A stretch of 64,000 nucleotides of DNA from the NCBI RefSeq assembly GCF_014851585.1, contig NZ_JACVAB010000001.1:186001-250000 (forward strand). The letters run 5' to 3'. Below the pieces are notes generated by a model. That model saw only the letters and a program-made list of their open reading frames with translations. It searched no databases and was not told where the DNA came from. A program made the translations under genes and the position numbers. The DNA is from Agrobacterium sp. AGB01. Its GTDB lineage: Bacteria > Pseudomonadota > Alphaproteobacteria > Rhizobiales > Rhizobiaceae. How positions within the stretch are numbered: the first letter of the stretch is position 1; the number at the start of each line of letters is the position of its first letter. Positions 25,798 through 63,762 of the stretch are shown in pieces.

Positions 25798-26214
25798 TGC
25801 TTGTAACCGTTTATTAACGTCTCGGCATTTAACATGACAATCCCAAGTCAAGCTGATGACACAAAAAATCCTTTAAAATCAAATGCTTGCGAGAGGTCTT
25901 TATCAAGTAGCCTATCTTTCTCTGCGAAAGGTGGCAGAGGTTTCGAGTCAAGTTTTTTTTTAATTTTTTTATTTGTATAGCCTCGCGAAAGCCTAGAAAT
26001 TTGAATCTCATTGATTCATAAGCGATTCTCCAAAATAGGCCCGGCGTGATGCAAAATGGTTAGTCAGAGTCAATGGCTGATCTTCGGCTTTGCAGAAAAA
26101 TGACCATTGATCTCAACCTACGATCCTGCCTAAATGCACCTCGTCAGGGGGCACGGATTACAATCCATCAACTGTTTCGAGTATTGAATTCGAAGGTTCG
26201 ATAGTTCCTTGCGG

Positions 26215-26239
26215 CGGGATGTTTTTCATCCCGTTTTTT
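26215..26239 (+). terminator. Intrinsic terminator inside the dnaA leader
   Basis: CGGGATG (26215-26221) and CATCCCG (26227-26233) pair perfectly around TTTTT, followed by six T. No protein gene ends before it. It must end either a small RNA or a prematurely stopped dnaA transcript. Confidence 0.75.
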
Positions 26240-26342
26240 CAGATATCGACACGATGCAAACTGCAACTGTGATGGTTGTAGAGCGGAATTTCTTTGTCTT
26301 GAAAAAAGTGATCTGAAGTTGAAACGAAAGGAGCACCGACAA

Positions 26343-57277: not shown

Positions 57278-57799
57278 TCAGGCCCGACGACGTTCGCTGA
57301 CAGGCTGGTAAGCCATCTTTGCGTGGAACTTGCAGTAAGGCGAGGAATCCTGGGAGTCGCAACCACAGAAATGGAAGTCTTCCGCCATTGGATCGCCAAC
57401 TGGCCACTTGCAGGTGCGTTCGGTCAATTCCGTCAGGCTAAGGCGACGCGAAATTGGAACAACAACGTTGCTGGCTGGTGCAAACTCGAGAACTTCACCG
57501 CTTTCGACTTCAATCTCTTCCTTGATGAGATTGGCGCCGGAAGCGCGGGTTACCGTGCGGGTAACAACGCGCGAAGCGTAGTTCGGAGCGCGCGGAGCAG
57601 ATGTCGTGCGCTTGGTTTGGGTGCGGGCGGAGGTTGCTGTGCCGCCAGCCTTTGCGCGGCCCGGCAGGCTAAGGCGGTGAACCTTGCCAATAACAGCGTT
57701 ACGACTTACACCGCCGAGCTGAGTGGCAATCTGGCTCGCACTCAGTCCTTCGGACCACAGTTTCTTGAGTTTTTCGACGCGTTCGTCTGTCCAGTTCAT
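57278..57799 (-). CDS. gcrA: Cell-cycle regulator GcrA
   Basis: GcrA is an alphaproteobacterial transcription factor that works with RNA polymerase sigma-70 at promoters carrying CcrM-methylated GANTC sites. The 173-residue protein begins with the family motif MNWTDERVEKLKKLWSEGLS and ASQIATQLGGVSRNAVIGKV, a helix-turn-helix. A basic Ala/Thr-rich linker follows. The C-terminus has the conserved ERTCKWPVGDP and a Cys/His cluster in FHFCGCDSQDSSPYCKFH. I start at ATG 57799, where the conserved N-terminus begins. Its upstream region contains five GANTC sites, suggesting methylation-dependent control of gcrA itself. Confidence 0.95.
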   Translation of the reverse strand: MNWTDERVEKLKKLWSEGLSASQIATQLGGVSRNAVIGKVHRLSLPGRAKAGGTATSARTQTKRTTSAPRAPNYASRVVTRTVTRASGANLIKEEIEVESGEVLEFAPASNVVVPISRRLSLTELTERTCKWPVGDPMAEDFHFCGCDSQDSSPYCKFHAKMAYQPVSERRRA

Positions 57800-57942
57800 G
57801 CCGCTCTCCGCTGTTCGCGTGTTGTAGGCAGAATCCGTCACCCTTGCCGCGGCAAGCCGCGAACACGCCCTAACAGGTATTTTGTGGTGACTAGTTCCGC
57901 CGCTTGCAGTCTAGTAATTGCCTATTAACCTAGTGTGAGGCT

Positions 57943-57979
57943 GACTCCGTGACAAGAGTCGAGGGAATCATCGCGAATC
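57943..57979. promoter_or_regulatory. Cluster of four GANTC (CcrM) sites upstream of gcrA
   Basis: GACTC (57943-57947), GAGTC (57956-57960), GAATC (57965-57969) and GAATC (57975-57979) lie within 37 bp. A random 37-bp stretch would hold well under one. GANTC is the CcrM methylation target read by GcrA. Confidence 0.75.
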
Positions 57980-58136
57980 GATTTTCCGGTTTTCCCCAAC
58001 TTGCTGCGAAAATGCGGCAGTCCTGAAGTGTCGCCAAAAGAATTATCTGCGGTTGAAGGGGATCTAAAAATACCGGAAAGTACCGGAAAACGCTGACTTT
58101 TGTTGACAGCGCAGGGTGAAGTGATGATAGTGCCGG

Positions 58137-58159
58137 TGCCGCCGCAAGGCGGCATTTTT
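58137..58159 (+). terminator. Intrinsic terminator upstream of argD
   Basis: TGCCGCC (58137-58143) and GGCGGCA (58148-58154) close a GCAA tetraloop, followed by TTTTT. It is oriented plus, yet no protein gene lies upstream on that strand. It ends a small RNA or attenuates an argD leader. Confidence 0.75.
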
Positions 58160-58239: not shown

Positions 58240-59439
58240 ATGGCCGAAGCCGCGCCATTGTTCGATACTTTTTCCAGAGCCCCGCTTCGGTTCGAGCGAG
58301 GCGAGGGCGTATGGCTCATTACGGAGAGTGGCGAGCGATATCTCGATTTCGCGGCGGGCGTTGCAGTAAACTCGCTTGGCCATGCACATCCTCATCTGGT
58401 GGAAGCCATAAAGGCGCAGGCAGAAAAGGTCTGGCACCTTTCCAATCTGTATGAAATTCCCGGCCAGGAAAAGCTTGCCAAGCGCCTGACCGATGCCACC
58501 TTCGCCGACAAGGCATTCTTCACCAACTCTGGTGCTGAAGCGCTGGAATGCGCCATCAAAACGGCGCGCCGTTACCACTATTCCAAGGGTCATCCGGAAA
58601 AATTCCGTATCGTGACTTTTGAAGGCGCGTTCCATGGCCGCACACTGGCCACTATCGCAGCCGGTGGACAGGCAAAATATCTCGAAGGTTTTGGCCCGAA
58701 GGTCGAAGGTTTCGATCAGGTGCCGTTTGGCGATCTCGAAGCCTTGAAGGCATTGATCACCTCGGAAACTGCAGCTCTGCTGATCGAGCCAGTGCAGGGT
58801 GAAGGCGGTATTCGTATCGTTCCGCCAGAATTCATGCGCACGCTGCGTGATCTATGTGATGAGCATGGCCTGTTGCTGATCCTTGATGAAGTCCAGACCG
58901 GCGTTGGTCGTACGGGCAAGCTTTTCGGTTATGAGTGGACCGGCGTCACGCCCGATATCATGGCGGTCGCCAAGGGTATCGGCGGCGGCTTCCCGCTCGG
59001 CGCCTGCCTTGCAACGGCAGAGGCTGCTTCCGGCATGACTGCTGGTACACATGGCACGACCTATGGCGGCAATCCGCTTGCCATGGCTGTCGGCAATGCC
59101 GTGCTGGACATCGTCCTGGCAGATGGGTTCCTGGATCATGTCCGCGACATCACGCTGATATTCCGCCAGGGGCTGGCATCCTTGCAGGACCGTTTCCCAG
59201 ATGTCATCGAAGAAATTCGCGGCGAAGGGCTTCTTCTCGGCATCAAGCCGAAAATGCCGTCCTCGGAACTCTTGCAGGCCATGCGCACGGAACATGTTCT
59301 GGGCGTGCCGGCTGGCGACAACGTCATCCGTCTTCTTCCGCCACTGGTCGTGACGGCAGAAGAGGCAAGAGAAGGGCTGCGCCGTATCGAAAACGCAGCA
59401 ATCGCACTTTCGGCATCACTTAAGGCAAAAAGCGCCTGA
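58240..59439 (+). CDS. argD: Acetylornithine aminotransferase
   Basis: ArgD transaminates N-acetylglutamate semialdehyde in arginine synthesis; many also act on succinyl-diaminopimelate in lysine synthesis. The 399-residue class III PLP aminotransferase has [18 protein letters not shown], the phosphate-binding [13 protein letters not shown], the ring-contacting [14 protein letters not shown] and the Schiff-base lysine in [21 protein letters not shown] lies about ten bases before ATG 58240. It is followed 52 bp later by argF on the same strand, and a shared transcript is likely. Confidence 0.95.
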
Positions 59440-63656: not shown

Positions 63657-63701
63657 AAAAAAACCGGCCGCAAAAGCAGACCGGTTTCGAACACCCGGTC
63701 T
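63657..63701 (-). promoter_or_regulatory. Terminator/antiterminator pair below the metZ riboswitch
   Basis: Two mutually exclusive hairpins on the minus strand. The first is AGACCGG (63701-63695) with CCGGTCT (63684-63678). The second is AAACCGG (63687-63681) with CCGGTTT (from 63667), which is followed by seven T (63663-63657). They share the ACCGG segment. The second is an intrinsic terminator ending about 18 bp before the metZ start. Confidence 0.65.
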
Positions 63702-63753
63702 TTTTAGCCACTTATTTAACGTGGCTGCAAGCCGACCGGCCAAATCACCACGG
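63702..63753 (-). ncRNA. SAM-II riboswitch controlling metZ
   Basis: The minus strand reads GTGGTGATTTGGCCG, then GCTTGCAGCCACGTTAAA, then GTGGCTAAAAA. These are the conserved blocks of the SAM-II aptamer: the P1 stem GTGGT.../...GCCAC, the A-rich loop TTAAA, and the 3' GTGGCTAAA that pairs back to form the pseudoknot. SAM binding lowers expression of methionine genes in related bacteria. A promoter TTGACG (63791-63786), 17 bp, TATGCC (63768-63763) precedes it. Confidence 0.88.
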
Positions 63754-63762
63754 GATAAAATT

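Follow-up and report, generated by a model that had tools for sequence, protein, structure and literature searches.

A fixed-spacing GANTC array at the predicted gcrA promoter of Agrobacterium sp. AGB01, conserved in its close relatives

In Alphaproteobacteria, GcrA and CcrM couple gene expression with chromosome replication. The closest described counterpart of the locus analyzed here is the orthologous gcrA promoter of A. tumefaciens (PG), which carries six GANTC sites in the 250 bp before gcrA and is repressed by methylation: it is less active with CcrM than without, its activity is lower also in E. coli with active versus inactive CcrM, and gcrA mRNA falls when CcrM is over-expressed (Martin et al. 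2024, PMC11514494). The same authors proposed that gcrA is activated on hemimethylation after passage of the replication fork, and deferred the impact of methylation on the cell-cycle control of GcrA levels to future work; the accessible text of that study gives no site spacing, no placement relative to -35 and -10, and no cross-species conservation. Brilli et al. (2010, PMC2877005) had listed GANTC ahead of cell-cycle genes, took the view that control cannot be deduced from the number of sites, and placed CtrA and GcrA under the control of CcrM in one cluster. The ctrA P1 and other GANTC promoters of Caulobacter share with the present locus a GANTC in the -35/-10 region, a state linked to hemimethylation and a CtrA half-site near the start, but ctrA P1 has one GANTC (PMC4287350), where the gcrA promoter studied here has four of them in a comb, one in the spacer and another directly against the -35 element. 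Caulobacter promoters with GANTC between -35 and -10 switch on at 40–60 min of the cell cycle (PMC4287350), unlike A. tumefaciens gcrA, where the measured effect of methylation is repression, so that promoters could differ in the sign of the effect. The S. meliloti gcrA promoter is likewise divergent from argD and has a CtrA motif over its start; GANTC at gcrA is not discussed in the available text of the study that mapped this start (PMC3616915). In the open-licence literature, which covers few subscription journals and no supplementary files, we found no description of a fixed spacing, a placement relative to -35 or an order-wide unit. The regulatory principle is therefore known from the orthologous A. 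tumefaciens promoter, and the fixed layout described below is apparently undescribed.

The window, that is, the whole 64-kb stretch of DNA that was analyzed, encodes GcrA and ArgD divergently, and the region between the two genes holds five GANTC sites. Positions relative to the start refer to the predicted gcrA transcription start near 57920.

57278–57799, minus strand: gcrA, 173 aa, cell-cycle sigma70 cofactor (Pfam PF07750 GcrA, E 7.9e-59)
58240–59439, plus strand: argD, divergent neighbour of gcrA (Pfam Aminotran_3, E 1.2e-120)
57975–57979, no strand: GANTC site 1, about -59 to -55, the sole YGAKTCK match among the array sites of the window
57965–57969, no strand: GANTC site 2, about -49 to -45
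57956–57960, no strand: GANTC site 3, abutting the -35 element, about -40 to -36
57943–57947, no strand: GANTC site 4, in the promoter spacer, about -27 to -23
57831–57835, no strand: GANTC site 5, in the gcrA 5' untranslated region, about +86, with the ATG 32 bp on

The GcrA protein scores 152 bits against the NCBIfam GcrA equivalog model, under its cut-off of 280. The genome also has a CcrM gene, recognized by a RAMA domain over its cut-off (G000:C11:746310), which scores 629 bits against the NCBIfam CcrM model, below the curated cut-off of 830. To the right of argD lies argF, on the plus strand like argD. The window GcrA is about 80% like the GcrA of Neorhizobium and Rhizobium and only about 72% like that of Agrobacterium, in contrast to the neighbouring ArgD, which is closest to Agrobacterium-type loci (87–89%). 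Genomes assigned to the same genus as the window (for example G012, locus L084) share 89% identity over 3 kb with A. tumefaciens B6 (L070) and A. pusense (L078), and the window thus probably falls in the GTDB genus that includes A. tumefaciens. In the control set, the archaeon Sulfolobus acidocaldarius gave a PF07750 match over the cut-off, as did Caulobacter, which is unexpected for an alphaproteobacterial cell-cycle regulator.

Both the positions of the sites, which start at 57831, 57943, 57956, 57965 and 57975, and the identity of the gene bear out the original prediction of five GANTC before gcrA, four of them within 37 bp (57943–57979). The density is exceptional in its surroundings: the 64-kb window as a whole contains 68 GANTC against a mean of 275 in dinucleotide shuffles, and in a genome sample of 975,044 bases (17% of 5.62 Mb, window included; 1,039 GANTC) four sites within 37 bp, or even within 60 bp, occur once, at gcrA. 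When the sites of a 770-kb stretch of contig C11 were placed uniformly, a four-in-37 cluster appeared anywhere in 10 of 2,000 placements, a null that leaves out the bias of GANTC to intergenic DNA and is therefore somewhat generous to the finding. Conservation in relatives is the stronger evidence against chance. Elsewhere in the same genome, another stretch of five GANTC spans 149 bp (1041–1189 of locus L305, G000:C11:141041).

The window has one other dense GANTC cluster, five sites in 127 bp (25945–26067), located in the gap that separates rpsT from dnaA. There, a spacing of 10-11-43 is kept in all 20 loci with a readable dnaA start, the window's own among them (25 loci were compared, five being unreadable), 19 by the strict rule and one with an extra site inside. 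Just before dnaA there is also a sub-threshold match to the Rhizobiales small RNA Atu_C3 (26140–26299; 24.5 bits against a gathering score of 100, E 0.0087).

To assess conservation at gcrA, 143 sequences were collected, with the GcrA start readable in 136. Among them are 107 close relatives, comprising the window, L001, L002 and L004–L107, L084–L107 having been identified through DNA similarity with the window. All 107 have the four sites in a window-like arrangement as well as a GANTC 32–42 bp ahead of the ATG, the counterpart of site 5; successive starts are 10, 9 and 13 bp apart in 104 and off by one base in three (L033, L038, L096). An extra site 30–60 bp upstream of the array is present in 63 of 104, at exactly 39 bp in 57, and the window is without it. 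At L068 and L070, both from A. tumefaciens, six sites fall within 250 bp, matching the count of Martin et al., at -222, -183, -173, -164, -151 and -39, to be compared with -180, -170, -161, -148 and -36 in the window; five of the six thus have window counterparts at matching positions, and the sixth, 39 bp further upstream, is the one that the window lacks. S. meliloti (L001) has the same four-site array as the window.

A subset independent of any choice by DNA consists of 80 loci taken by protein similarity, the best 80 of 555, which makes it lean to near relatives; the named genera include Rhizobium, Neorhizobium, Agrobacterium, Allorhizobium, Ensifer, Sinorhizobium and Ciceribacter. Within these best 80 of 555, all 80 have exactly one pair of GANTC 13 bp apart (sites 3 and 4) and 78 have the exact four-site spacing. 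They reduce to 66 distinct blocks, in which site 2 is aligned in 66 and site 1 in 64. Information content at sites 1 and 2 is 1.8–2.0 bits in the GA and TC columns, with only T or A as the middle base, against 0.16, 0.16, 0.75, 0.28, 0.04, 0.34, 0.1, 1.02 and 1.28 bits in the nine gap columns, seven of which fall at 0.04–0.75. A block of merely conserved DNA does not account for this pattern, as the information content between the sites is low compared with the GANTC columns; the contrast between near-maximal GANTC columns and drifting gaps indicates that selection acts on both the methylation motif and its spacing.

Read along the gcrA strand, the array has the form GATTC-N5-GATTC-N4-GACTC-TTGTCA-CG-GAGTC-N10-TAGGTT, so that the sites surround a candidate promoter with the following elements.

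57950–57955, minus strand: -35 element TTGTCA, with TTG.CA invariant in 114 distinct blocks
57927–57932, minus strand: TAGGTT, best candidate for the -10 element, nearly invariant and at a fixed distance in the 114 blocks
57917–57923, minus strand: predicted gcrA transcription start, about 57920, placed from the -10 position and in agreement with the S. meliloti start (PMC3616915)
57914–57928, minus strand: CtrA-like box TTAA-N7-TTAC, overlapping the predicted start and mostly conserved in the 114 distinct blocks
57989–58005, minus strand: conserved block AGCAAGTTGGGGAAAAC, about 33 bp before the -35 element, containing a DnaA W-box
57993–57998, plus strand: W-box TCCCCA within that block

The 114 blocks come from sequences picked for having four sites, and their invariant GA and TC columns are so by construction. 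The spacer between TTG.CA and TAGGTT is 17 bp, and from this arrangement we infer that TTGTCA-17-TAGGTT is the gcrA promoter, of the sigma70 type. The candidate -10 is weak (3/6 versus TATAAT) and the region reads TATWGTAG in many loci of other families, which makes the exact -10 uncertain. Relative to the predicted start, the sites begin at about -59, -49, -40 and -27, with the fifth at about +86, and GANTC sites therefore lie within the predicted core promoter, as in promoters controlled by CcrM methylation. In the published S. meliloti map (PMC3616915), two CtrA motifs overlap the gcrA start, a strong one on the opposite strand and a weaker one, TAA-N7-TTACT, on the same strand. In L001, the first base of the weaker motif is also the last base of the proposed -10 (TAGGTTAACATTCAATTACT), an overlap that lends support to the promoter placement. 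The predicted CtrA box over the start is what the sequence of a CtrA-controlled promoter would be expected to contain. Further upstream, GGGGAAAA stands ahead of the promoter unit in all 80 relatives (best 80 of 555) and in 34 of 63 loci of other families, against none in 40 shuffled sets. TCCCCA is a W-box weakly bound by DnaA in Caulobacter (PMC4285127), where DnaA activates gcrA (PMC2877005, PMC4287350), and DnaA may act at the gcrA promoter of the window as well.

This architecture does not appear to reflect a general class of promoters with TTG-N5-GANTC. In the 975 kb of genome sequence, TTG-Nn-GANTC occurs 42 times for n=5 within a range of 24–58 for n=0–15, with no peak at n=5, and a looser version of the full promoter unit has two matches, one of which is gcrA, so that the unit looks gene-specific; the 13-bp GANTC pair is found at gcrA alone.

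The array is reduced with phylogenetic distance. Of 199 genomes sampled across the GTDB family, 127 have a DNA match to the promoter of the window, and 50 of these 127 were read, three being unreadable. In the pooled family set of 154 loci, many of them picked by DNA similarity and with a few genomes counted twice, the 13-bp pair is present in 153, the exact 10-9-13 spacing in 138 and TTG-N5-GANTC in all 154; the other 16 comprise ten loci with three sites (spaced 18 or 19, then 13), five that are off by one base and one without site 3. Of the 72 family genomes without a DNA match, 33 were read and 31 had a readable start. The four-site array is found in none of these 31 and the 13-bp pair in 13, and TTG-N5-GANTC is present in 20 and absent in 11, which indicates that the four-site comb is a feature of part of the family. 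Site 2 is absent from the array both in the ten deviating family loci and in the more distant family loci that keep the 13-bp pair. For the other families of the order, 69 loci were read from the top of the ranking of 146 genomes with GcrA, one rank being passed over; four of them belong to the family and two have no readable start, leaving 63. The 13-bp pair occurs in 28 of the 63, under 13 family tags as counted by hand (shuffle mean 0.4), and in all 28 the left site is followed by TTG (26 GACTCTTG, one GAGTCTTG, one GAATCTTG). TTG-N5-GANTC is present in 46 and absent in 17 of the 63; shuffled sequences gave it in 1.45 loci on average and in 4 at most. In the class sample (29 loci taken from the top 30 of 179 GcrA-bearing genomes; 27 readable, of which L123 is in the same order), the pair was seen in one of 27 loci and TTG-N5-GANTC in three of the 26 other than L123, and the unit is thus rare outside the order. 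The conservation of the sites on which the original prediction depended is therefore found in close relatives, spacing included, and the full array is absent in distant family members. The observation is real, the array being strongly conserved in close relatives and, in a reduced form, more widely.

The suggestion that methylation might also affect the divergent argD finds no support here, since argD has a conserved promoter of its own, the -35 element of which starts 124 bp beyond the nearest GANTC.

58103–58131, plus strand: TTGACA-17-GATAGT, the promoter of argD, lying apart from the GANTC array

A promoter of this form is present in 77 of 80 relatives (best 80 of 555), and methylation control of argD is accordingly set aside. 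Directly after it comes a hairpin with a T-run resembling an intrinsic terminator (promoter and hairpin together at 58103–58156), and a promoter followed by a perfect hairpin and T-run is present in 76 of 80 relatives (best 80 of 555); it may act as an attenuator, stabilize the 5' end or give rise to a very short RNA. The idea of a small RNA or leader in the stretch from the array to argD was also rejected: no Rfam family matches the intergenic region at its gathering score, the one match, an irrelevant one, lying far below its own. In the S. meliloti locus, a hypothetical protein is annotated at 2567–2815 of L001. Elsewhere in the window, a SAM_alpha riboswitch is found at 63683–63761 on the minus strand (80.3 bits).

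We lean, with some reserve, towards the reading that the gcrA promoter is a sigma70-type promoter with a fixed comb of CcrM sites in and upstream of its -35 element, at which full methylation weakens polymerase binding and passage of the fork brings relief. What the present analysis establishes is where the sites lie and how far they are conserved, how the promoter is built as judged from its sequence, and that the same genome has CcrM and GcrA genes. If methylation has the same sign here as in A. tumefaciens and acts directly on the polymerase, full methylation at the sites touching the -35 element and spacer would weaken binding of RNA polymerase and gcrA would be low on the fully methylated chromosome; passage of the fork would leave the sites hemimethylated, the promoter more active, and a burst of GcrA would follow. 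CtrA bound over the start site would presumably repress the promoter, and DnaA would possibly act from the conserved upstream W-box block. To our knowledge, E. coli has neither GcrA nor the regulators of Alphaproteobacteria. That methylation nonetheless affects the A. tumefaciens promoter there (PMC11514494) argues that the methyl groups are sensed by the polymerase or by some other widely conserved factor, and the position of site 3 against the -35 element and of site 4 in the spacer offers a reason. The same observation counts against an alternative, to which we assign a distinctly smaller chance, in which GcrA forms a feedback loop by binding the methylated promoter of its own gene, which it represses or activates. 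GcrA is an activator that binds methylated GANTC (PMC7987155) and is associated with sigma70 (PMC6813329), its ChIP-seq peaks in B. abortus are enriched 4.4- and 4.7-fold for GANTC (PMC6813329), and the spacer site is placed much like the GANTC of Caulobacter ctrA P1 (-28/-29) and podJ P2 (-24) (PMC4287350). Yet YGAKTCK, the extended form of GANTC linked with activation by GcrA in Caulobacter, is found among the 66 distinct relatives in 31 at site 1, in six at site 2 and in none at sites 3 and 4, so that the core sites near -35 and -10 do not have the form expected of a Caulobacter-type GcrA promoter, although in B. subvibrioides (Brevundimonas) GcrA showed no preference for an extended motif (PMC7987155). 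The open-licence literature yielded no report of GcrA on its own promoter. The original prediction of methylation-dependent feedback on gcrA thus stands as to methylation control, on the A. tumefaciens evidence (PMC11514494), and loses ground as to feedback through GcrA, given the effect in E. coli and the absence of YGAKTCK from the core sites. GcrA may still act at its own promoter alongside an effect on the polymerase.

It is unlikely, in our estimate, that the GANTC sites are kept for another reader, such as CtrA, DnaA, MucR, NtrX or some other protein, with methylation being incidental. The block is rich in other conserved sequence (AGCAAGTTGGGGAAAAC, TAGGTTAA, CTAGAC), sites 1 and 2 have T or A alone at their middle position, and NtrX binds the S. 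meliloti gcrA promoter (PMC9223101), but the four sites are exact while most of the intervening bases drift, and methylation alters promoter activity in both A. tumefaciens and E. coli (PMC11514494). For NtrX, the motif tested in S. meliloti, CAAACCTTG, is located there immediately ahead of the argD promoter, whereas the intergenic region of the window does not contain it, and an explanation through this motif was rejected. Chance clustering of GANTC in intergenic DNA, conserved by shared descent alone, is disfavoured, and we regard it as very improbable: although intergenic GANTC are tolerated or favoured in Alphaproteobacteria (PMC3973325) and the full array is missing from more distant family members, the sequence between the sites drifts, the cluster is the sole four-in-60-bp cluster in 975 kb, and 28 of the 63 other-family loci also have the 13-bp pair (shuffle mean 0.4).

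Taking methylation-sensitive binding of the polymerase as the preferred reading, a broader and tentative proposal would be a gate at the gcrA promoters of many Hyphomicrobiales families, with a GANTC in the spacer and often a second at the -35 element, where the polymerase reads methylation without a dedicated reader. The Rhizobium–Agrobacterium–Sinorhizobium group would have added two more sites at 9- and 10-bp steps, making a multi-site timer of fork passage, and the array at dnaA would suggest that the same clock drives both regulators. As the methylation sites are fixed relative to the -35 element, exact point mutations may separate reading by the polymerase from reading by GcrA, and the same fixed layout lets one ask whether the passage of the replication fork sets the timing of gcrA.
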